In this document: in pieces, positions 6,508 to 45,615 of the stretch
Layout: every line of letters starts with the position of its first letter
How positions within the stretch are numbered: the stretch's first letter is position 1
Source: Alphaproteobacteria bacterium PA2
GTDB taxonomy: Bacteria; Pseudomonadota; Alphaproteobacteria; Caulobacterales; Caulobacteraceae
Direction: 5' to 3'
Assembly: GCA_002256425.1 (NCBI GenBank)
Contig: NKIZ01000001.1
Span: forward strand, 806,001 to 870,000
DNA length: 64,000 nucleotides
Translations under genes and position numbers: made by a program
The notes under the pieces: model-generated
What the model saw: the letters and a program-made list of their open reading frames with translations, nothing else
What the model was told of the DNA's origin: nothing
The model's database searches: none

Positions 6508-7427
6508 TGGAAATTGTCCCGTGAGCCGTCCATCAGCTGGATGAAGATGTCCTCCAGGCTGGGCCGGACCTCCGAGATCTTCACCCCGGGCGCGGCGACT
6601 GTCGTGAGTGCGGCGGTGAGGGCTGCCCGGTCAGTCCCGGAAACATGCAGGCTGGCGCCGAAGGGGGCGGCCATTTCGACGCCGGACTGAGTGCGAAGAT
6701 GATCGGCCACCTGGTCAATATCACCACCCTCAAGGTTGAAGGTGATGAGTCCTGAACGGTCGATCAGTTCGTCCGCCGTACCCCGGGCGATCAGCTGGCC
6801 ATAGCTGATATAGGCGATCTCGTGGCATCGCTCGGCTTCGTCCATATAGTGGGTTGAGACCAGAACCGTCAGGCCTGCCCGGGCCAGGGCGTGGATCTCG
6901 TCCCAGAAGGTGCGGCGGGCCTTGGGGTCCACCCCGGCGGTGGGCTCGTCCAGCAGCAGGAGCTTCGGTTCATGCAGGGTGGCGCTGGCCAGGGCCAGCC
7001 TCTGTTTCCAGCCGCCAGAGAGGGTTCCCGCCAACTGCCGCCGCCGGGCGGTGAGGCCCAGGTTTTCGAGGGCGCGATCAACCCGGTCCTGCCGGTGGTC
7101 CAGCTCATGAACCCGGGCGGCGAACATCAGGTTTTCCTCAAGGGTCAGGTCCTCGTAGAGGGAAAACTTCTGGGTCATGTAGCCCGTCGCCCGCTTGATG
7201 GCGCCGGCTTGCCGGATGATGTCCTGGCCAAGGCAGGTTCCGGATCCTGAGTCCGGGGTCAGAAGGCCGCACAGCATGCGCAGGGTCGTGGTCTTGCCCG
7301 AGCCATTGGGACCCAGAAAGCCGCAGATCTGTCCCTGGCCCAGCTGGATGGAGACATCATCCACCACCTTGCGGCCGCCATAGCTCTTGTTCAGGCCTTG
7401 GACATCGATGACCAGGGGCTCGCTCAT
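6504..7427 (-). CDS. ABC transporter ATP-binding protein
   Basis: A 307-residue single-domain ATPase of the CcmA/YbhF class. Walker A GPNGSGKTTT lies at residues 39-48, the signature is LSGGWKQRL, Walker B LLLLDEPTAGVDP, and the switch histidine lies in VLVSTHYMDEAE. The C-terminal ~80 residues form the small extension seen in ABC-2 drug exporters. E. coli YbhF is a fusion of two ATPases; this one is a single copy, implying a homodimer. It overlaps by ATGA with the adaptor gene upstream and the permease downstream, so stoichiometric co-translation is likely. Confidence 0.92.
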   Translation of the reverse strand: MSEPLVIDVQGLNKSYGGRKVVDDVSIQLGQGQICGFLGPNGSGKTTTLRMLCGLLTPDSGSGTCLGQDIIRQAGAIKRATGYMTQKFSLYEDLTLEENLMFAARVHELDHRQDRVDRALENLGLTARRRQLAGTLSGGWKQRLALASATLHEPKLLLLDEPTAGVDPKARRTFWDEIHALARAGLTVLVSTHYMDEAERCHEIAYISYGQLIARGTADELIDRSGLITFNLEGGDIDQVADHLRTQSGVEMAAPFGASLHVSGTDRAALTAALTTVAAPGVKISEVRPSLEDIFIQLMDGSRDNFQ

Positions 7428-8395
7428 CGGGCGGCGACCAGGGGCGTGACATCCACGGGCTGGCCGGGGTTCAGTCGCACCGAGGGGCGGGCTTCAACCA
7501 GATAGACCAGCCGGTCACGGGTCTCGCGGCTGTAGATCACCGGTGGGGTGAACTCGGGCCTGGGGCTGATTAAGTCGATCCTGGCCGTGAGGCCTTTTGC
7601 GCAGCCGTCGCACGAGAAGGCGACATTCTTGCCCGGTGAGTAGAGCGCAATCTGCGTCTCCGGAACAAAGAACCGGACCTTGATCCTGTCTTCCGGCAGC
7701 AGGGCCATAACCGGCTGGTTGGCGATGACCCATTCGCCCTTCTGGAAGAAGACATCTTCCACCAGGCCGGCGGCAGGGGCCGTTGGCGCAGTGTCAGAAA
7801 GACGGGCCGACGCGGCGGCGGCGCCCGCCCGGGCCTGGGTGACCCGGCTGTCGGCGGCCGTGACCTGGCCTTCCCGCGCGCCCAGGGTCAGTGCGTCCCT
7901 CTGGCGTCTCGCTGCGGTCAACTGGGCGAGCGCCGCATCGCGACTGGCCTTTGCATCGTCCAGACGCGCCGGGGCGAAGATACCTTTCGCAGCCAGGGGC
8001 CGGATACGATTGAGGACCGCGTCGGCCTCCCGCAGGCGCGCTTCAGCCGCGGCGACATTGGCGTCATAGATGGCCAGTTCCACAGGGCGCAATCCTCTCC
8101 TTGCATCCTGCGCCTGGGCGGTAGCGGCGGAGACCTCGGCCTGAGCCTGATCCCGGGCGGCGGCAGGCTGGCTGGGATCCAAGCTGAACAGCCTCTGCCC
8201 CGCCGCGACCCTTGCGCCCTTCTCCACCTGCAGGTCCGTCAGGGCGCCGGAAACGGGGGAGGCCAGGTAAAGAGCATCGCCCTCCACATAACCTGACAGC
8301 AAGGTCTGTCCCTGCTGCCTTGGCAGGAAGACGAGGGCCGCGATCAGTGCAAGGGCGACGCCCACAAGGGCAACGGGAAGGAGCCGGTGCTTCAT
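7424..8395 (-). CDS. HlyD-family periplasmic adaptor of an ABC exporter
   Basis: A 323-residue membrane-fusion protein. I use ATG 8393-8395 (MKHRLLPVALVG...): it overlaps the tetR stop by 4 nt and is followed directly by an N-terminal membrane anchor; the longer open frame has no export signal. After the anchor come a lipoyl half-domain (YVEGDALYLASPVSG...VEKGARVAAGQRLFSLD), a long Ala/Arg-rich coiled-coil hairpin (about residues 75-190), the second lipoyl half and a beta-barrel domain containing a CDGC pair. It resembles E. coli YbhG and would bridge the ABC permease to an outer-membrane channel, which is not encoded here. Confidence 0.87.
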   Translation of the reverse strand: MKHRLLPVALVGVALALIAALVFLPRQQGQTLLSGYVEGDALYLASPVSGALTDLQVEKGARVAAGQRLFSLDPSQPAAARDQAQAEVSAATAQAQDARRGLRPVELAIYDANVAAAEARLREADAVLNRIRPLAAKGIFAPARLDDAKASRDAALAQLTAARRQRDALTLGAREGQVTAADSRVTQARAGAAAASARLSDTAPTAPAAGLVEDVFFQKGEWVIANQPVMALLPEDRIKVRFFVPETQIALYSPGKNVAFSCDGCAKGLTARIDLISPRPEFTPPVIYSRETRDRLVYLVEARPSVRLNPGQPVDVTPLVAAR

Positions 8396-9027
8396 GGCTT
8401 TGGATCCGGGGTCATGCCGCGCAGCACGGTTTCGGCGTGCTGCCGGGCCAGGGCGGTGATGTCGAAGGGCTGGGCGCCGATGGGGACAAAGGTCTCGCGC
8501 CACATGACCCCCACCAGGGTCGGCGCCACCATGCCCATGGCGAACAGGCGCGGGTCACCGGGGCGGACCTCGCCCCTGGCCTGGGCCTGTTCAATGATGT
8601 CGCAGAGCAGGGTCAGGACCGGTTCAATGGTCCGCTCATGCCAGATACTGGCCAGCTCCGGAAAATTCCGGGCCTCGGCCAGGATCATTTTCACAATGCC
8701 GCCGATGGGAGAGTGCGCCGCGAGGGGCGCCGTGATTGCCGCAAACTGGCGCACCCGGTCCGCAAAGGGGGTTGGAACCTGCGCCAGGTCCCGCATGAGC
8801 TTGATGTTCGGAGCTACAGCCGTTTCGACCACGGCCCGGAAGATGTCCTGCTTGGTGGCGAAATAGAGATAGATGGCGCCCTTGGACACCCCTGCCCGGG
8901 CGGCGATGTCGTCCAGCCGGGCGGCGGCGAAGCCCTTTTCCACAAAGACCTCCAGGGCCGCCGCGACGATTTCGTCGGGCCGATCAGCCTTGCGTCGGCG
9001 GAATTTCGGAGGGCCAGGAGGCAGCAT
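8392..9027 (-). CDS. TetR-family repressor of the ABC exporter operon (CecR-like)
   Basis: A 211-residue regulator. The N-terminal HTH (ARLDDIAARAGVSKGAIYLYFATKQDIF, about residues 33-60) is typical TetR, with a variable C-terminal ligand-binding domain. Two starts are possible: GTG at 9036, which lies inside the palindromic operator, and ATG at 9027; I prefer ATG, preceded by a GTGAG element. The gene opens an operon with hlyD, ATPase and permease joined by 4-nt overlaps, the same order as E. coli cecR-ybhGF(S)R. It most likely represses this operon, and possibly the divergent DUF4153 gene, until an exported compound binds it. Confidence 0.88.
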   Translation of the reverse strand: MLPPGPPKFRRRKADRPDEIVAAALEVFVEKGFAAARLDDIAARAGVSKGAIYLYFATKQDIFRAVVETAVAPNIKLMRDLAQVPTPFADRVRQFAAITAPLAAHSPIGGIVKMILAEARNFPELASIWHERTIEPVLTLLCDIIEQAQARGEVRPGDPRLFAMGMVAPTLVGVMWRETFVPIGAQPFDITALARQHAETVLRGMTPDPKP

Positions 9028-9033
9028 GGGACT

Positions 9034-9063
9034 CACTAATAACTGACTGGTCAGTTATTAGTG
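9034..9063. promoter_or_regulatory. Perfect palindromic TetR operator
   Basis: Two 14-nt arms (cactaataactgac and its exact complement) are separated by TG, giving a perfect 30-nt inverted repeat. Its core ACTGAC-N2-GTCAGT resembles operators of many TetR proteins. It lies just upstream of the tetR ATG and between tetR and the divergent DUF4153 gene, the expected place for an autoregulatory site that could control both directions. The GTG alternative start of tetR falls inside it. Confidence 0.85.
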
Positions 9064-9141
9064 CAGACTTGGGCGGAGGTTTCAAGGCGTGATTGGCGGT
9101 AGCGAGCAACCGTGGCACCTTCAAACCAAAGGGAGGTCGCC

Positions 9142-10905
9142 ATGACCCGGATCGACAGCCAGCCTGATCATCGCCGCCTCGCGCCTGCCCGCCTCGCCAC
9201 AGGACTTGTGGCCGGCGTCGCACTCTATCTGATCGACCTTTGGGGTAAGGGCGCCGGAAAGACCTCCCACGAGCTCTTCGCTGTTCTGATCACAACCTGG
9301 GTCTTTGTCCCGGTGGTCCTTCTGGGGGCTTTCGGCGCCATGCAGAGGCGGGGTCTGACCCTCTGGGCCCTGGCGTCGACGGTCATTGTGGTCGGGCTGT
9401 CCGCCTATCAGGCGAAGGTTTCGGGCGATGCAAATCTGCCGACCCCGCCGTCCTTTGCCTTCGGCTTCTTCCTGGCTGTCGGACTGTTCATCGCCCACGG
9501 GCTGATCCTTGGAGCCAGCGCAGCCGGGCGCTGGCGGGCGCCCTACAGCCTCTATTTCGATATCGCCTGGAAGGACGCCGTACGGCTGGCCCTGGCGGCC
9601 GCCTTTGTCGGCGCCCTCTGGCTGGTGCTCTTCCTCGGCGCGGCGCTCTTCAACCTGATTGGCGTCAAGGCGCTGCAGGACATCATCACCAGGCCAGTCT
9701 TCGCCTTTCCCGCAACCTCGACCTTCTTCGCCCTTGCCGTTCATGTGACGGACGCGAGGGCAGGACTGGTCCGCGGGGCGCGCACCCTGGCCCTGACCCT
9801 GCTGTCCTGGCTCTTGCCCCTGATGACGGTTCTGGCTGTGGGCTTCCTGGCAGCCCTGCCGTTTACGGGGCTGGAGCCGCTCTGGAAGACCAAATCAGCG
9901 GCGGGAATCCTGCTGGGCGCTGCGGCCGCCCTGATCGTCCTGATCAACGCCGCCTATCAGGAGGGCGAGCAGGACGGCTTTCCACCCCTGGCGTTGAAGC
10001 TGTCGGCCCGGATCGCGGCTTTTGTCCTGACGCCGCTGCTGGCGATCGCCGCCTTCGGACTGGTCCTGCGCATCCGCCAGCACGGCTTTACCCCTGACCG
10101 GCTTGAAGGGCTGGCGGCTGTCCTGCTCGGGGCCGTCTATGCCCATGGCTATGGCTGGGCGGCGGTGCGGACCCATCCCTGGATGAAGCATCTGGAGGGA
10201 ACCAACGTCCTCGCAGCCCATGTGGCCCTGGCCCTGCTGCTGGCGATCTTTTCTCCCTTGGCGGACCCGGCCCGGCTCTCCGTGAATGACCAGATGCACC
10301 GACTGCGGACGGGCAAGGTCTCGGTGCAGGACTTTGACTACAACTTCCTGCGACATGCCTCCGGACTACATGGCCGGAAAGCCCTGGATCAGCTGGTGGA
10401 TCATCCCTTCGGGCCCAGGGCCGCCGAGATGGCCGAGCGCGCCAGGAATGCCCGGAAGGCAGAGAACCCCTGGGACCATGTTCCGGCTACGGCGGCCGAG
10501 CAGGCGAGGGCGGTGAAGGTCATCGGCGCTGAGGCCCTACCTGGATCATTTACATCCCAGGTCTGGTCAAACGCCGATGATCCCCTTCGGGACTGCAAGG
10601 GTGACCAGCCCTGCGCGGCCATTATTCGGGACTTCGATTCTCAGGAAGGAGCAGAGATCCTCATCCAGGCGCCTTCAACCAACAACCTGTATGCCCTGCA
10701 AGGCGACCAATGGGTGCGCGTCGGATATGTACCAGCCAACTGCGGAAACAAGGATGACGAGGCGCTCAGGGCCGGGGACTTCAAGCTTGAGCCGCCGAAG
10801 AGGGTCTGGAGCGACCTTGTGATTGACGGGCGCCGGGTTCCGGTGGTTCTGGATACACAATGCCCGCCAGTTACAGCTTCTGCTGCGGCATCGACAGATA
10901 AATAA
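9142..10905 (+). CDS. DUF4153 polytopic membrane protein
   Basis: A 587-residue protein. ATG 9142 is chosen because GGGAGG lies about 8 nt upstream, although the frame opens at 9112. About ten to twelve hydrophobic segments span residues 15-385 and include SLYFDIAWKDAVRLALAA, typical of DUF4153. A soluble tail of about 200 residues follows (from NDQMHRLRTGKVSVQDFDYN onward) and holds paired cysteines (DCKGDQPCA, NCGN, TQCPP), consistent with a periplasmic disulfide-bonded domain. The function of DUF4153 is not established. It faces away from tetR across the 9034-9063 palindrome and may share its control. Confidence 0.75.
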   Translation: MTRIDSQPDHRRLAPARLATGLVAGVALYLIDLWGKGAGKTSHELFAVLITTWVFVPVVLLGAFGAMQRRGLTLWALASTVIVVGLSAYQAKVSGDANLPTPPSFAFGFFLAVGLFIAHGLILGASAAGRWRAPYSLYFDIAWKDAVRLALAAAFVGALWLVLFLGAALFNLIGVKALQDIITRPVFAFPATSTFFALAVHVTDARAGLVRGARTLALTLLSWLLPLMTVLAVGFLAALPFTGLEPLWKTKSAAGILLGAAAALIVLINAAYQEGEQDGFPPLALKLSARIAAFVLTPLLAIAAFGLVLRIRQHGFTPDRLEGLAAVLLGAVYAHGYGWAAVRTHPWMKHLEGTNVLAAHVALALLLAIFSPLADPARLSVNDQMHRLRTGKVSVQDFDYNFLRHASGLHGRKALDQLVDHPFGPRAAEMAERARNARKAENPWDHVPATAAEQARAVKVIGAEALPGSFTSQVWSNADDPLRDCKGDQPCAAIIRDFDSQEGAEILIQAPSTNNLYALQGDQWVRVGYVPANCGNKDDEALRAGDFKLEPPKRVWSDLVIDGRRVPVVLDTQCPPVTASAAASTDK

Positions 10906-35759: not shown

Positions 35760-37247
35760 CTACAGAGAAATTGATGCGCGGACCAGTTTCGCCAGGTCAT
35801 CCCTGAGCCTTACCGCTCTGGCTCGACCAGCTGCCGTCTTGATGATGTTCACCTGTTCCCTGGGATCGGCCCTGAGGTCGTAGAGCTCGTCCAGTTCCGG
35901 CGACATGTTCCAGTGGACGTACTTGAAATCACTTGTCCGAATGGCCTTGTAATCAGCATCCAGAAGCCAGGTGAATGGCAAGTCGTCGCTGAAATTTTCT
36001 ATCAGGACCTCTGACCTTCTTTTGGGAACTCCAAATTTCCGGGACAGTAGTGGAGCAAAGGAGATTCCCTGGACATGGTCTCCTATGGTCGCATTGCCGA
36101 TCTGAAGTATGGACGGCGCCAAATCAACACTGGAAACAAGGGATTCGATCCGCGAGTTTTCCTTAACGACACCAGGGTATCGGACGAGAAGCGGAGACTT
36201 TATGGATTCTTCATAGGGAAGTCTGCGCTCTAAACTCAGGCCGTGTTCACCAAAGAAGTACCCATTGTCGCTGGTGAAAATGATTGCGGTATTATCCAGC
36301 TGGTTTGCTTCAACCAGTGCTTGATATATATTCCCCAGGCTTTCATCGACGGACAGGATCATTTCCGCCCGATCCCGAATGCTCTGTTCGCTGGTTCCCG
36401 GATCCAGAATGGGTCCAAACTCGCGGACCACTTCTGGTGATTGCTTTCTATCAAGAAACCGTTTGACCATTGCGCTGCCAAGCGTGCCCTCAGCCGCGGT
36501 CTTGCTGATGCTTTGCCTTGGGAAGATCTGATCCTTGTATCGGTCCTTGTACTTTGCAGCCGGGATGTAGCGGTTTCCATATTCCGTATCCACGGAGCCA
36601 TCATCCCTCTGAATGGCGTCCGGGTGTACGGCCTTGTGGGCGAGATGCAGGAAGAACGGCCTGGAATCATCCTTCTGGCGGTTGATGAACCCTGTCGCCC
36701 GATCTGTCAGAATCTCCGTGACATACCCCTTCACGGTGGCGAGGCGACCATTCTCATAGATTTTCGGGTCATTAATCCGCCCCTGCCCAGGGAAGCTGAC
36801 CCAATAGTCAAAGCCCGGTCGCGGCGTTGGATCATTGCCCATATGCCACTTGCCCACATGAGCCGTCGCATAGCCTGCACGCTGAAGATCCTGCGGGAAG
36901 GTCCTCAGGAGGTGGCTGAGGGCATCCCGGCTGGCATTGTTGTAAACACCATGACGCGCTGTGTACTGCCCGGTGAGAATGCATGCCCGATTTGGCGAAC
37001 ATAGCGGGGTCGCGTGGAATGCATTCGAGAATGTCGCGCCTTCCCTGGCCAGACGATCGATGTTTGGCGTCTTCAGGTATGGGTGGCCGGCCGCGCCGAA
37101 TTCATCCCAACGCAGGTCATCGACCAGGATGAGAATGATGTTCGGCGGCCGTTGGGGAACTGGCGTCGGCAATCCGCGAGCTGGTCCTGCTGCAGCCAGG
37201 GTAGCTCCACTGGCGCCGACCAAACCCATGAGTTTTCTACGGTTCAT
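35760..37247 (-). CDS. Type I sulfatase (arylsulfatase/choline-sulfatase-like)
   Basis: A 495-residue sulfatase. ATG 37245-37247 gives a Tat-like signal (MNRRKLMGLVGASG...). The formylglycine site is CSPNR-x4-TG with Cys83, and the metal ligands Asp43-Asp44 lie in ILVDDLRWDEF. GKWHMG, the FLHLAHKAVHP segment and TSDNGYFFGEHGL are family hallmarks. Such enzymes release sulfate from aryl, steroid or carbohydrate esters after conversion of Cys83 by a formylglycine-generating enzyme, which is not in the window. The gene is clearly AT-richer than its neighbours (29 G+C of 60 at 36001-36060), suggesting recent acquisition. It is divergent from the next TBDR. Confidence 0.92.
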   Translation of the reverse strand: MNRRKLMGLVGASGATLAAAGPARGLPTPVPQRPPNIILILVDDLRWDEFGAAGHPYLKTPNIDRLAREGATFSNAFHATPLCSPNRACILTGQYTARHGVYNNASRDALSHLLRTFPQDLQRAGYATAHVGKWHMGNDPTPRPGFDYWVSFPGQGRINDPKIYENGRLATVKGYVTEILTDRATGFINRQKDDSRPFFLHLAHKAVHPDAIQRDDGSVDTEYGNRYIPAAKYKDRYKDQIFPRQSISKTAAEGTLGSAMVKRFLDRKQSPEVVREFGPILDPGTSEQSIRDRAEMILSVDESLGNIYQALVEANQLDNTAIIFTSDNGYFFGEHGLSLERRLPYEESIKSPLLVRYPGVVKENSRIESLVSSVDLAPSILQIGNATIGDHVQGISFAPLLSRKFGVPKRRSEVLIENFSDDLPFTWLLDADYKAIRTSDFKYVHWNMSPELDELYDLRADPREQVNIIKTAAGRARAVRLRDDLAKLVRASISL

Positions 37248-37606
37248 AGCATCATCCAGAGCGCCAGGAGCGGGGGCAAACACACGACTCGCCGTCAGAT
37301 CTGCGGCGTTGCTGAAGCCAGGTGACGCTCCAGCCCCGCCCGGCGAATGGCTGATCCGCCTTATGCCCAGCGCTTGATGAGTACAAGGGGCGACCAAGGG
37401 ATCCGAGCCGATGTTTTGCTCAGGACGCCAGGCCCCGGCGCCCTGTCGCAAGGGCCGTTGGCAATTTTTTCAGGCAGGCATTCCGCCTGATACCCCAATC
37501 ACCTGCCCATGCATGGGTATCCGACCTGCGCCAAAACGAACCTGTTGACCTCAGGCAGACAGGGGCCTCTATTCCGCCCCAAGAAAATACAGGGGGAGAA
37601 ACCACA
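37248..37606. other. Divergent control region between sulfatase and TBDR
   Basis: No gene is seen. It contains the perfect palindrome CCCATGCATGGG (37506-37517) about 28 nt upstream of the TBDR -35, and near 37469-37493 an AT-rich stretch with AGGC/GCCT arms. Promoters for both directions must be here. Confidence 0.55.
37545..37573 (+). promoter_or_regulatory. Probable promoter of the second large TBDR
   Basis: TTGACC (37545-37550) and TCTATT (37568-37573) are 17 nt apart. The predicted start lies about 27 nt before the ATG, and AGGGGGAGAAA provides the ribosome site. The palindrome at 37506-37517 is placed where an activator would bind. Confidence 0.55.
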
Positions 37607-40426: not shown

Positions 40427-40500
40427 TCGGTCTCAACCAGGCCGGGCCCGGCGTAATGTCCGGGTCCGGTCCAACTTCCCAGCATTGTTCAGGCGCCTCC

Positions 40501-42804
40501 ATGTCAACATCCCTGCCCGTTATGAGACGTGTCCTTGGTATGGTCCTGACAGGGTCGGCCCTGTTGGCCAGTCATGCCATGGCGGCGCCCCTGGTCTGCG
40601 AAACAGCAGGGTTCAGCCCGGGTGACGGATTTGAGGTCAGCAAGGGCCCGGAAGACGTAACCCTCCAGTGGAGTGGTGAGGCGGGTCAGACCGGCCGACT
40701 GAAGCTGCAGGTCGTCGCCGGAGAGCCGCGAATTGCGGAACTCGCACTCAGGAAGGACGGGGGAGACTGGGTCGTGGTCGGGTCCGACCTGCGTCCCGAA
40801 TTCAGCGTTGTCAGCGGCGTCCGCCGCATGAGCAACCAACAGCTTCAGCCCCTGCGGGACCTGAAGGTTCCCATCACCCAGGAGGTCCTGGACAAGTATC
40901 GCTGGGACCCCTTCTGGGATGCGCCGCTGGATCTCGCGGTCCCGGTTCCAGGCCGGCAGATGAGCGGCAATCCTCCGCCCGGAGCAGGTCTTCCGGGGAC
41001 AGACCAGGCGGGCCTTCCGCGCTCGGCGCAGGAAATCAAGCGCGCAGCCATCGAGTACCGCATCGAAAACTGTTCTGTCCGCCGTGATGGCGGCCGGATC
41101 GTCGCGTCATTTCCTGGCGTAAAACTCGGGGTCTTTGACGGGCGTCTCGAGATCACTGTCTTCAAGGGCACCAATCTGATCCGTCAGGAAGTGATCGCCT
41201 CAACCCAGGAAAAATGGGTCGCCTACAAGTTTGATGCGGGTCTCTCCGGATTCCGTTCAGGCCCGGAGGCCTCAGTGACCTGGCGGGACACGGCGGGCGA
41301 TCAGCAGGCCTATCGGTTTGGCGGGGCGCCAAACAAGGGGCCAGTCGCCCTCGAGGCAGCCAATCGCATCATCGTTGCAGAGCAGGGTGCGAGCGCCATC
41401 GCAGCATTTCCCACGCCTCACAAATTCTTCTGGGCGCGGGAGGTGGCGATCAACATGGGCTACAACTGGTACCGCAAGGACAGCGAAGCCAGTTTCAGCA
41501 TCGGCGTCCGCCAGAACGAACACGAGGATCCAAGCGAGGCCCAGGCCAACTGGGCGCTCTACAGCGCCCGGCCAGGTACGGATCAGCTGATGACGCTCTT
41601 TCTCTATCCGAGTCTTGCGGGAGGGCAGGGCGCCAGAGAGGCTGCAATGAGCTTCACCCATGGCGACCGCTACAAGCCGCTGGCGGGCTACCAGGTGATG
41701 AACCACCACTATCACATGGATCTCGGGCAGAGGCTCCTGGATGCCGGAAGCCCTGACGAAAAGGTTCCTGATCTGGTCGCCCTCAAGGCCCTGGGGATCA
41801 ATATCGTCAGCCTGATCGACTCCGTCTTCTTCCAGCCGCCCAATGCCCCGCCGCCGACCGGGCGGGTGCGCCCCGATCAGCTGCCGATCACTGCGTCTTC
41901 GATCAAGGGAGCCCAGATCCATTCGGACAAGGACTTCCTCGTCATGGCCAACCAGGAAGTCTATGGCAGCCCTCTGGGCGGGCACACCGACCTGCTCTTC
42001 AGCCGTCCGGTTTACTGGGACAGCCGCAAGTCAGGTCAGCCCTTCAAGGAAGCGCATCCGACCTATGGAAACGTCTATCACATTGGCGATGCCGCCGACT
42101 TTCTGCAGATGGCCAAGGAACAGGACATACTGATTTCCATGCCCCATCCCCGGACCAAGGGGTCAACGGGGTATCCTGACGCCATCCGGGAAGAGTCCTA
42201 TTTCAACGACCCCCACTATCACGGGGTCGGTATGCGCTGGGGTATGGGGCTGGATGGCTCCGAAAGGCGTTTGTGCGAACTCAGGTGCTGGCCCCTGCTG
42301 GACGATATGAGCAACTGGGCCGTAGACCGTCCAATGCCGCTCAAGTTTGTCACCGCCATTTCCGAGGTCAGGTACATGGCCCCCGGCGATGACATCTATG
42401 GCAGCCAGCCTGTGAGTTATCTTCGTTTGCCGACCCTCCCGCCGGCCACTGACCCCAGTCCCGTGATCCAGGCCCTCGCCCGTGGCGACAGCTTCTGGAC
42501 AACTGGCGAGGTCCTGATCCGGAACCTGGCCTTGCAACCTGCCAAAGGCGGCCAGCAGCTGTCTGCAGAGGTCGAATGGACCTATCCGCTGGAATTCGTC
42601 GAAATGGTTTGGGGCGATGGCAAGACGACACGGCGTACGGTCATCCCGACCCGTGATCTGGCGCCCTTCGCCAGCCACAGGTTCGAGTTTCCCATCCCGG
42701 CCAAGGGCGCCAAGTGGGTCCGGTTTGCGGCCTGGGACATCGCGTCCAATGGGGCTGTCAGCCAGCCGATGCGTACGGGCGCCATGCCGGGGAAGGCCAA
42801 ATAA
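40501..42804 (+). CDS. Exported CehA/McbA-like PHP-family metallohydrolase
   Basis: A 767-residue protein downstream of the TBDR (74-nt gap). ATG 40501 gives an export signal (hydrophobic segment MRRVLGMVLTGSALLASHAMAA); a start at 40522 is also possible. The N-terminal ~380 residues are beta-rich and unrecognised. The C-terminal part carries His402-His403-x-His405 (NHHYH), DKDFLVMANQE and HPRTKG with His549, then ALARGDSFWTTGEVLI, which resembles the end of CehA (carbaryl hydrolase)-type PHP domains. A periplasmic metal-dependent hydrolase of esters, carbamates or phosphates is the best guess; the exact metal set differs from what I remember of CehA. Confidence 0.6.
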   Translation: MSTSLPVMRRVLGMVLTGSALLASHAMAAPLVCETAGFSPGDGFEVSKGPEDVTLQWSGEAGQTGRLKLQVVAGEPRIAELALRKDGGDWVVVGSDLRPEFSVVSGVRRMSNQQLQPLRDLKVPITQEVLDKYRWDPFWDAPLDLAVPVPGRQMSGNPPPGAGLPGTDQAGLPRSAQEIKRAAIEYRIENCSVRRDGGRIVASFPGVKLGVFDGRLEITVFKGTNLIRQEVIASTQEKWVAYKFDAGLSGFRSGPEASVTWRDTAGDQQAYRFGGAPNKGPVALEAANRIIVAEQGASAIAAFPTPHKFFWAREVAINMGYNWYRKDSEASFSIGVRQNEHEDPSEAQANWALYSARPGTDQLMTLFLYPSLAGGQGAREAAMSFTHGDRYKPLAGYQVMNHHYHMDLGQRLLDAGSPDEKVPDLVALKALGINIVSLIDSVFFQPPNAPPPTGRVRPDQLPITASSIKGAQIHSDKDFLVMANQEVYGSPLGGHTDLLFSRPVYWDSRKSGQPFKEAHPTYGNVYHIGDAADFLQMAKEQDILISMPHPRTKGSTGYPDAIREESYFNDPHYHGVGMRWGMGLDGSERRLCELRCWPLLDDMSNWAVDRPMPLKFVTAISEVRYMAPGDDIYGSQPVSYLRLPTLPPATDPSPVIQALARGDSFWTTGEVLIRNLALQPAKGGQQLSAEVEWTYPLEFVEMVWGDGKTTRRTVIPTRDLAPFASHRFEFPIPAKGAKWVRFAAWDIASNGAVSQPMRTGAMPGKAK

Positions 42805-42956
42805 GCCACAGCCCGGCGCCATTGGGGATCTTGTCGAAGGACTGTCGCGCGCGTCGCAAATTGGCAAGGATGATTTCCTAGACGGGTTCTGCGATACGAA
42901 AAGGTGTGGAGCCGCCCCGATCTGCGGTTCTGTGGGGCAGTCAGGGAGACCCAGAA

Positions 42957-44651
42957 ATGCGTGGCTTCGATTCCGATCCTTCGGTGGTCGTCAGTGGACC
43001 GCTGGGGCAACTGACCCACCGCCGCAATCTTGAACACAGTGCACGACTGGCCAAGCAGTTCTATGCCGTGCGGCCAGGTGTCTGGACCTTCGTGGGCAAC
43101 GGGCTTTCCAACCAGACATTTGTGGAAGGGCCCGGGGGGATCATCGCTGTCGACACCGGCGAGAGCATCGAGGAGATGCGCGCCGCCCTGGCTGAGTTGC
43201 GTCAGCAGACCCAGGCGCCCGTGGTGGCCGTGCTCTATACCCACTTCCACTATATCGGCGGAACACGGGCGATCCTGGATGAGGCTGGCGCCGACATCCC
43301 CATTCTTGGTCACGAGCGGATCCCGCTCAATCTTGCCCGCGTCTCGAGCGAAATCGGACCGGCCTATTCCCGTGGCCTGATCCATCAGTTCGGATTGAGG
43401 TTGCCCGAGGAGGGGCCCGACGCCCTGGTCAATGAAGGGCTGGGTTCGCACTTCCGCAACCCGGAACACGCCCCGTTTACGCCGGGCTATGTCCCGCCGA
43501 CGGCGGTCTTCAAGGGCGGCGAGCGGCTGAACCTTGCGGGGTTGACCGTCGAGATCACCCACGCCCCATCCGACGCCGACGACTCCGTCACCTTCTGGTT
43601 TCCCGATCTCGACGTTTGCATCCAGAATCTCGTCTGGCCGACCCTGTTCAATATCTTCCCCATTCGCGGCGAGGCCTACCGCGATCCGCAGGTCCTGCTG
43701 CAAGGGATCGACCATATTGTCGGCCTCCAACCCGAGCACCTTCTCGGGGCGCATGGCCCGCCGATCTCTGGCAAGGCCCAGACCGTGGCCCGCGCGACAG
43801 CCTATCGGGACTCCATCCAGTTCCTCTGGGATCAGACGGTGCGCGGCATGAACAAGGGTCTGACCGCCGATCAGATGGCCCACGCCATCGTCCTGCCCGC
43901 CAGTTTCGATGACGACTATCTCACCTCGGAATTCTACGGGGTCGCCGAGCACCATGTGCGGCAGATCGCGGCCGGTGTCAGGGGTTGGTTCGACGATGAC
44001 ACCTCGCGCCTCTTTCCCCTGGAGCCGGTCGAGCGCGCTGGCCGCCTGATCGCCGAACTCGGTGGAGCCGAAGCCGTCCGTGGCAAGGTCACGGCGGCGC
44101 GGGCCTCGAACGATCTGCGCTGGGCGCTCGAGCTGGCTTCGTGGCTGAACACCCGGGCCGGCGCCGAGACAGCGGACCGTGAACTGCTTGCGGGCGTGCT
44201 GCGCGATCTGGCCAGCCGGACCACCGCCATGAACATCCGCAACTGGTGTCTGACCCGGGCCCGGGACCTTGACGGGTCAACGGACCTGTCCAAGTTGCGC
44301 GAGCACAGACTCCGTGCTTCGCAGCTGCTGGGCCAGTCGCCCTTTGAAACCCTTCATCTCCTGCGGGTCCTGCTGGATCCGGAACGGGCCAGCGGAATTG
44401 ATCTGCATGTCGGGTTCAGGTTCCCCGATGCCGAGGCTGCCGGCCTTCATATCCGCAATTGCGTCTCGGTCGCCACATCGGGCAAGGGTGCGGCTAACAC
44501 CCTCGAAATCACCTATGCCGATCTTGTCCGTGTACTGACCGGCACTGCGAATCTCTCTGATCTTCTCACCACAGGTGGCGCCAAGGCCGAGGGGGACGCC
44601 GAAGGACTGCGGCGCGCCCTGGCGAGCTTTGATGTCCCCGGCCTGCGTTAG
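42957..44651 (+). CDS. Alkylsulfatase-like MBL-fold protein
   Basis: A 564-residue protein in three parts like SdsA1/BDS1 alkylsulfatases: an MBL domain (1-270), an alkylsulfatase dimerisation domain (about 275-420; GMNKGLTADQMAHAIVLP, EFYGVAEHHVRQIAAGVRGWFD) and an SCP2-like C-terminal domain. ATG 42957 follows AGGGAG; it has no obvious signal peptide. The metal motif is unusual: HxHxDH reads THFHYIGG (His96, His98), lacking the Asp-His pair, and the TEAPAE-like segment reads HAPSDADDS (202-210). His266 is kept (GAHGPP). It may bind one metal or act on a different ester. Confidence 0.82.
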   Translation: MRGFDSDPSVVVSGPLGQLTHRRNLEHSARLAKQFYAVRPGVWTFVGNGLSNQTFVEGPGGIIAVDTGESIEEMRAALAELRQQTQAPVVAVLYTHFHYIGGTRAILDEAGADIPILGHERIPLNLARVSSEIGPAYSRGLIHQFGLRLPEEGPDALVNEGLGSHFRNPEHAPFTPGYVPPTAVFKGGERLNLAGLTVEITHAPSDADDSVTFWFPDLDVCIQNLVWPTLFNIFPIRGEAYRDPQVLLQGIDHIVGLQPEHLLGAHGPPISGKAQTVARATAYRDSIQFLWDQTVRGMNKGLTADQMAHAIVLPASFDDDYLTSEFYGVAEHHVRQIAAGVRGWFDDDTSRLFPLEPVERAGRLIAELGGAEAVRGKVTAARASNDLRWALELASWLNTRAGAETADRELLAGVLRDLASRTTAMNIRNWCLTRARDLDGSTDLSKLREHRLRASQLLGQSPFETLHLLRVLLDPERASGIDLHVGFRFPDAEAAGLHIRNCVSVATSGKGAANTLEITYADLVRVLTGTANLSDLLTTGGAKAEGDAEGLRRALASFDVPGLR

Positions 44652-44706
44652 TGACAAGGGCCGCTGACTGACTCGACCCTCGACGGGCCGGCCAGCATGG
44701 ATCGCA

Positions 44707-45615
44707 TCAGCTGCGGGTATAGGTGTTGAACCACTCGATCATCCGGGTCCAGGCCTGGGGAGCGGTCACCTTGTTGTATCGTTCCGGTGTGGCGTCGTTG
44801 AAGAAGCCGTGGACGGAATTGGGCCAGAGATGGCCCTCATAGCGGATATTGTTCTTTTTCAATTCGGCTTCCTGCGCCGCATAGCCGGCGGCCAGGGCTG
44901 AATCCAGGGCGCCGTGATTGATCAGAATGGCCGCCTTGATCCTGGGAACATCCGCCGCCGGGGTCGCAGAGCCGTAGAACGGCGCCGCCGCGGCCAGGTC
45001 TTCGCCGAGGATGGCCGCCAGGGCATTGGATTGTCCGCCCCCAAAGCAGAATCCGGTGGCCGCGATCTTGCCCGTGCAGTCGGGGCGGTCCTTGAGCCAC
45101 CTCGCCGCAGCGACCAGATCTTCAGTCATCTTCGCCCGGTCGATCTTGGCGAACATCTGGCCCCCCTTGTAGTCGTCACCGGGATAGCCGCCCAGGGAGG
45201 TCAGGGTGTCAGGGGCAAAGGCCATGAAATTCTCCAGGGCGAACCGGCGGGCCACATCTTCAGTATGAGGATTCAGGCCCCGGTTTTCATGGATCACGAT
45301 GACGCCCGGCAGCTTGGCCGGGGTGGCGCTTCGGGTGTCTGCACTGTTGGGACGGACCAGATAGCCGCGAATGGATCCATTTCCATTGGGCGAGGGTATG
45401 GTCACATAAGAGGCCTTGATCCGTTCATCGTCCTTCCGGACCTGCTGCCCCAGGGCATAATTGGGCATCAGGGCGTTGATGATCGTCGCTGCCGTAAGTC
45501 CGCCAACCGCGTGCTTGCCGACTCCGCTGACAAAGGCGCGACGGCTGATCTCGCCGTGGATGAAGCGGGTGTAGAGATCAACGGCCTCGGCAGGAATTTT
45601 GCGGCCTTCGGTCAT
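44707..45615 (-). CDS. Dienelactone hydrolase family protein, Tat-exported
   Basis: A 302-residue carboxymethylenebutenolidase-type hydrolase. The triad is visible: Cys190 (GFCFGGG), Asp238 and His269 (NSVHGFFND). The N-terminus (EISRRAFVSGVGKHAVGGLTAATII) has a twin-arginine motif and hydrophobic stretch, as in the common Tat-exported members that begin MTE..IP.EA..LY..FIHGEI. Classical DLH opens dienelactone in the chlorocatechol/beta-ketoadipate route, but exported forms have broader, poorly known substrates. It converges with the alkylsulfatase-like gene and is divergent from the KDPGal aldolase gene. Confidence 0.88.
   Translation of the reverse strand: MTEGRKIPAEAVDLYTRFIHGEISRRAFVSGVGKHAVGGLTAATIINALMPNYALGQQVRKDDERIKASYVTIPSPNGNGSIRGYLVRPNSADTRSATPAKLPGVIVIHENRGLNPHTEDVARRFALENFMAFAPDTLTSLGGYPGDDYKGGQMFAKIDRAKMTEDLVAAARWLKDRPDCTGKIAATGFCFGGGQSNALAAILGEDLAAAAPFYGSATPAADVPRIKAAILINHGALDSALAAGYAAQEAELKKNNIRYEGHLWPNSVHGFFNDATPERYNKVTAPQAWTRMIEWFNTYTRS

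Follow-up and report, generated by a model that had tools for sequence, protein, structure and literature searches.

The locus described here raises the question of what a protein built like an alkylsulfatase does when the metal-binding motif of that family, HxHxDH, is shortened to HxHY. The gene lies in a window of 64,000 nucleotides, the whole stretch of DNA that was analysed, from Alphaproteobacteria bacterium PA2, a member of the Caulobacteraceae. Proteins with the shortened motif are referred to below as the HxHY clade.

Gene, domains and predicted fold

The gene and the two domains in the C-terminal half of its product are as follows.

42957..44651, + strand: HxHY-clade alkylsulfatase-like protein, 564 amino acids, ATG start
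43863..44273, + strand: alkylsulfatase dimerisation domain (PF14863), residues 303-439, by Pfam
44352..44639, + strand: alkylsulfatase C-terminal (SCP2-like) domain (PF14864), residues 466-561, by Pfam

A GTG at 42906 is an alternative in-frame start, and the N-terminal MR(S/G)F of the 564-residue form is found again in its orthologues. A hydrophobic N-terminus is not seen in this form. All three domains score above their Pfam cut-offs: Lactamase_B (PF00753) at 31.9 bits (cut-off 22.7), PF14863 at 92 bits (cut-off 26) and PF14864 at 46.6 bits (cut-off 27). The dimerisation and SCP2-like domains are thus retained, as the initial annotation had stated. Sequence matches among solved proteins are YjcS, SdsA1, Pisa1, SdsAP and a second YjcS. 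An AlphaFold2 model built on a 77-row alignment has a pLDDT of 95.5, and structure comparison superposes it on SdsA1 over 541 residues (Z 42.5, rmsd 3.4 A, 25% identity). The Lactamase_B profile and the predicted fold place the protein in the MBL-fold superfamily, and its succession of MBL, dimerisation and C-terminal SCP2-like domains is the architecture of type-III alkylsulfatases.

A consensus scan of 42700-44900 gave no promoter or terminator match. Just upstream, a 782-residue protein (40456-42804, + strand) has no Pfam match and a weak similarity to CehA/McbA metallohydrolases (21.1 bits, cut-off 80). An antisense open frame of 457 residues (42582-43955, - strand) overlaps the gene, and similarity to it is seen in 44 loci; this similarity most likely just mirrors the coding strand.

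The shortened motif in orthologues

43239..43262, + strand: T95-H96-F97-H98-Y99-I100-G101-G102, the shortened HxHxDH; His96 and His98 are predicted metal ligands

In alignments to YjcS, SdsA1 and Pisa1, the HxHxDHxGG of SdsA1 becomes HFHYIGG in the window protein, two residues fewer than in any of the three. The reduction noticed at the outset is confirmed, and both it and the SDADDS segment lie within the stated span of 43238-43600. A scan of GTDB genome contigs gave 213 relatives, and the best 80 (51-75% identity) were taken as orthologous loci. HFHY is present in 79 of them, and the eightieth (L022) is masked at the motif. This count is partly selected, since THFHYIGG was among the six peptide patterns of the scan. 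Whole-protein and profile searches, which are independent of the motif, found 13 core loci besides the window, every one with HFHY; ten are genes already among the 80 and three are new (L086, L087, L124). The belief, voiced in the initial annotation, that relatives with a THxHY motif exist is confirmed by the 79 loci together with these three. More distant HxHY proteins occur in L091, L102, L145 and its tandem neighbour, L151 and L162. Among 199 sampled genomes of the Caulobacteraceae, 12 hold a core member by score, the window's included, and all 12 read HxHY.

The HFHY motif is real, neither chance nor sequencing error. An error of sequencing or assembly, or decay into a pseudogene, has practically no chance of being the cause and was rejected: the orthologues read HFHY in 79 of 80 loci, and dN (0.19-0.25) is well below dS (1.3-2.3, near saturation) between the window gene and four orthologues.

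On viral contigs, none of 20 pattern matches was confirmed as a relative. A protein search of plasmids returned 170 records, all below 60% identity to the HxHY protein; the two whose motif was read, L114 and L115, both carry HxHxDH. Plasmid relatives bear the annotation 'alkyl sulfatase dimerization domain-containing protein'. No DNA match to the HxHY gene was found on plasmids. In another contig (L172, - strand), two different HxHY proteins are encoded back to back, at 6725-8473 and 8473-10212, with touching frames. This tandem adjoins genes that, judged by a look at their sequence, resemble an MFS transporter and a GMC oxidoreductase.

Ligands of the two metal sites

43569..43586, + strand: S205-D206-A207-D208-D209-S210; Asp206 aligns with the Glu ligand of Zn2 (Glu303 of SdsAP)
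43626..43628, + strand: Asn224, aligned with Glu322, common to both SdsAP zinc ions
43647..43649, + strand: Phe231, replacing the His of the 'HN' motif, by alignment
43752..43754, + strand: His266, the sole retained Zn1-side ligand, by alignment

In SdsAP (PMC5426288), Zn1 is bound by Asp196, His197, His367 and Glu322 and Zn2 by His192, His194, Glu303 and Glu322, with Asp in place of Glu303 in Pisa1. Aligned with the ligands as given there, the Zn2 set corresponds to His96, His98, Asp206 and Asn224 of the window protein, whereas in the Zn1 set Asp196 and His197 have no counterpart and the remaining two fall on His266 and Asn224. The di-zinc set is thus incomplete in the sequence alignment: three of seven ligands are identical, one Glu is changed to Asp and the other to Asn, and two are deleted. 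The equivalent of the shared Glu is either Gln223 or Asn224 (two alignments differ by one residue). It had been suggested that SDADDS replaces the Glu-bearing segment. Instead, SDADDS corresponds to that very segment, Asp206 being aligned with the Zn2 Glu ligand.

Conservation was assessed over 99 HxHY rows, which comprise 89 distinct sequences and omit three repeat copies of the window gene; L022, with its masked motif, is left out of both groups in the comparison with HxHxDH rows. His98, Tyr99, Asp206, Asp209, Arg237 and Arg242 are invariant in all 99, although the invariance of His98 and Tyr99 is partly built into the definition of the group. His96 is found in 98 (the remaining row has a gap from a cut locus), His266 in 98 and Asn224 in 97; the distant member L162 has Gly for His266. 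The pocket residues are among the most conserved of the HxHY proteins. In the column of Asp206, 67 of 70 HxHxDH rows have Glu. All 32 classical rows have the His of the 'HN' motif, which we take to be the leaving-group acid (Pisa1 His317). This His is nearly always absent from non-classical HxHxDH rows and is replaced by Phe in 96 of the 99 HxHY rows. Residue 140 is Arg in all 70 HxHxDH rows and in the 6 outer HxHY rows, and Gly in all 96 core HxHY rows.

By alignment, it appears that one metal site is kept in the HxHY clade and the other is lost. Since the ligands are invariant and dN is well below dS, it is reasoned that half of the metal site was removed and that the other half is under selection. 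The initial annotation had left three options: use of one metal, changed chemistry, or a non-enzymatic binding protein. The first is now the best supported, as the ligands of one site are conserved and those of the other are gone except for His266; the last is less likely, given the same invariance and dN/dS contrast.

The persistence of His266 in 98 of 99 rows, though its usual metal partners are gone, could also mean that a full two-metal site has been reconstituted with other ligands, such as His266 together with Tyr99, Asp208 or Asp209, Glu69 or Asn224. We consider a rebuilt site quite improbable. Asp209 and Glu69 are no HxHY-specific replacements, because many HxHxDH rows have them as well (36 and 19 of 70, respectively), and Asp208 varies.

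Phylogeny of the clade

In a motif-masked tree of 54 rows, a single branch divides 23 HxHY from 31 HxHxDH rows (bootstrap 98, SH-aLRT 90; present in 98% of 200 bootstrap trees). Rows shorter than 450 residues and near-copies are omitted from the trees, and one locus cut at the motif (L145b) is treated as HxHY, the neighbouring full frame in L172 reading H.HY. A single loss of the motif is the simplest reading of this tree and no proof of it, because the dividing branch is very short and the end branches of some rows are long. The HxHY proteins are a widespread branch of alkylsulfatase relatives that is apparently so far uncharacterised; no HxHY alkylsulfatase-like clade was described in the literature searched, which comprised titles and the starts of abstracts, with subscription journals largely outside it.

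A gene pair with type-I sulfatases

Gene neighbourhoods were compared over 87 HxHY loci (the 80 orthologous loci, the window, L172-L176 and L183). In 45 of them the next gene downstream, on the same strand, encodes a type-I (formylglycine) sulfatase. Such a gene is adjacent on the other strand in 2 and elsewhere in the flanks in 6, the window included; in the remaining 34 no sulfatase was seen, 8 of these having fewer than 700 bases downstream. Stop and start overlap by 4 bases in 34 of the 45 adjacent pairs, if the start codon nearest the stop is assumed. The other pairs overlap by 1 base (4 pairs) or 8 bases (1), or are separated by 0-13 bases (6). All 45 downstream sulfatases contain the motif C-[SA]-P-[ST]-R.

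HxHxDH genes served as controls. Among 39 such loci from the window's phylum, including the two paralogues of the window's own genome (L001, L002), one has an adjacent sulfatase (L212) and two more have one nearby that carries the same motif (L213, L214); the scores of these against the partner-sulfatase profile are much lower. A further 20 controls came from genomes in which an HxHY gene is also present, and none of them has an adjacent sulfatase (two have fewer than 700 bases downstream, one has an unreadable motif, and one has a sulfatase 0.7 kb off on the other strand). Fisher's test of 44/78 against 1/39 gives p 1e-9, uncorrected for relatedness. After removal of near-copies at 80% identity, which leaves 48 loci, the pair is found in 23 of 29 loci of Actinomycetota, in the single locus of Acidobacteriota and in 1 of 17 of Pseudomonadota other than the window, whose gene has no adjacent sulfatase; the phyla are those given for the records, mostly MAGs. 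It appears that in many actinobacteria the HxHY gene and the type-I sulfatase gene are in one operon.

The partner sulfatase P0002 matches the Pseudomonas aeruginosa arylsulfatase (PDB 1HDH) over residues 38-567 (E 5.9e-58) and has the motif CSPTR. Partner sulfatases of two loci (L018, L028) start without a hydrophobic N-terminus. By a crude test, such an N-terminus is found in 0 of 95 core HxHY rows, 15 of 32 classical rows, 22 of 41 other HxHxDH rows and 3 of 5 outer HxHY rows; these numbers include repeat copies (three of the window gene among the 95), some rows without a start found and, among the 41, up to three cut HxHY rows (L022 twice, L145b).

In a locus of the window's phylum (L174, 6551-12109, - strand), the distant HxHY protein of the L162 row shares one stretch with two other genes. 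One encodes an anaerobic sulfatase maturase (TIGR03942, 482.8 bits, cut-off 349); the other encodes a sulfatase, for which the motif search selected STAGR. In Acidimicrobiia loci such as L028, L061 and L073, the pair stands among genes for subunits like those of formate dehydrogenase or NADH dehydrogenase, 2-oxoglutarate oxygenases, a HalD-like protein, an MttB-family methyltransferase and an MftD-like enzyme. Such neighbours could indicate a pathway in which formate or methyl groups are released.

The pair also bears on whether the HxHY protein is an enzyme at all. It could be non-catalytic, its fold having been retained for binding or as a scaffold, with the co-translated sulfatase as one conceivable partner and with any metal being structural. 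The Asp and His of Zn1, the shared Glu and the 'HN' His are all lost, and the frequent 4-base overlap suggests that the two proteins are made in matched amounts. However, the pocket residues would then hardly be expected among the most conserved, and many members, among them that of the window, lack a sulfatase next to them. We regard a non-catalytic protein as unlikely, though a serious alternative.

The sulfatase of the window

35760..37451, - strand: type-I sulfatase frame (stop included), Tat-like leader, CSPNR; 5.7 kb from the HxHY gene

This sulfatase is probably not the partner of the HxHY protein. It has a strong SGSH_C match, which is absent at cut-off in P0002, and a leader that is Tat-like by eye, with none in the HxHY protein; it is also 5.7 kb away, on the opposite strand. 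Because it is one of six PF00884 sulfatases in a genome of 3.47 Mb, chance is a fair explanation for its proximity. In the Caulobacteraceae, homologues of the partner sulfatase are found at E <= 1e-100 in 69 of 199 genomes and at E=0 in 2. Both E=0 genomes are HxHY-positive and one of them is the source of the query itself, so that the co-occurrence of sulfatase and HxHY gene is weak.

Proposed function

We propose that the HxHY protein is a cytosolic one-metal (2-His/1-Asp) enzyme of sulfate-ester catabolism and not an S3 alkylsulfatase, a proposal that we hold to be about equally likely to prove right or wrong. In the simplest case, one ancestral deletion of two residues in HxHxDH would have removed Zn1 ligands, leaving a mononuclear site in which His96, His98 and Asp206 may bind the metal. 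Two His and one carboxylate on one metal are the ligand set of many one-metal hydrolases and Fe(II) oxygenases. His266, Tyr99, Arg237 and Arg242 are likely second-sphere or catalytic residues and could serve in acid/base catalysis and anion binding. The protein would then most likely be a cytosolic, dimeric hydrolase with Zn or Fe, with a role in the breakdown of a sulfated organic compound, acting on the compound or on its desulfated product. In actinobacteria, where it is apparently co-translated with the formylglycine sulfatase, it probably shares the substrate of that enzyme or acts on the product.

A bolder form of this proposal, improbable as a whole, would make the clade a new class of enzyme built on the alkylsulfatase scaffold. 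Its mononuclear 2-His/1-Asp site might hold Fe(II). In actinobacteria it would act with a co-translated, cytosolic formylglycine sulfatase, as a pair or as a complex, and complete the breakdown of a sulfated natural compound; most Caulobacteraceae that carry it would have kept it without an adjacent partner.

Alternatively, the protein may still be an alkylsulfatase, one metal being enough for attack of water on alkyl sulfates. The predicted fold and domains are unchanged and the linkage to sulfatases fits. We give this reading only a small chance. The window's genome already encodes two paralogues with canonical HxHxDH (L001, L002), and the protonating His is also altered, if it is indeed His317. 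Moreover, in the Pisa1 mechanism, as described in a review, a binuclear zinc cluster activates water and 'a histidine residue' protonates the leaving sulfate (PMC3920027), and that cluster is altered here.

The window protein passes the Pfam cut-offs for alkylsulfatase domains, yet the HxHY clade lacks half of the catalytic centre, and for that reason the label 'alkylsulfatase' is misleading. If one metal suffices, the clade is an example of a two-metal hydrolase fold that lost one of its metals, most simply in a single step, and still remained under strong selection. The pairing with a type-I sulfatase is a direct lead to substrate and function.

Comparison with known systems

The type-III alkylsulfatases SdsA1, SdsAP and Pisa1 and their relative YjcS (SulfAtlas S3) have the three-domain architecture and, over the full length, the predicted fold in common with the HxHY protein (Z 34.3-42.5). 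Also common are the two His of the Zn2 site, the Asp/Glu ligand position, His266 and both conserved Arg. In contrast to them, the HxHY protein lacks HxHxDH, its Zn1 ligands are deleted, the shared Glu is Asn, the 'HN' His is Phe, and identity is about 25%. SdsAP has a 41-residue signal peptide (PMC5426288), whereas the core HxHY clade has no hydrophobic N-terminus. The S3 criteria (PMC5066984) are HxHxDH and at least 30% identity to SdsA1 over about 600 residues. By these published criteria the window protein, with HFHY and 25% identity over the 541 residues aligned in the structure comparison of its model, is outside S3.

PqsE, chlorothalonil dehalogenase and other MBL-fold proteins match the fold of residues ~25-352 (Z ~19-25), so that their likeness covers the MBL part and leaves the rest of the HxHY protein unmatched. 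The P. aeruginosa arylsulfatase 1HDH, among the best solved matches of partner P0002, resembles the partner and is of another family than the HxHY protein. The non-classical HxHxDH proteins (L088-L090, L092-L101, L127-L134, L146-L150, L152-L155) are like the HxHY clade in that most have Asp209, many have His119 and nearly all lack the 'HN' His. They differ in keeping HxHxDH and, with few exceptions, the Glu ligand, and those of them included in the tree stand on the opposite side of the branch from HxHY.
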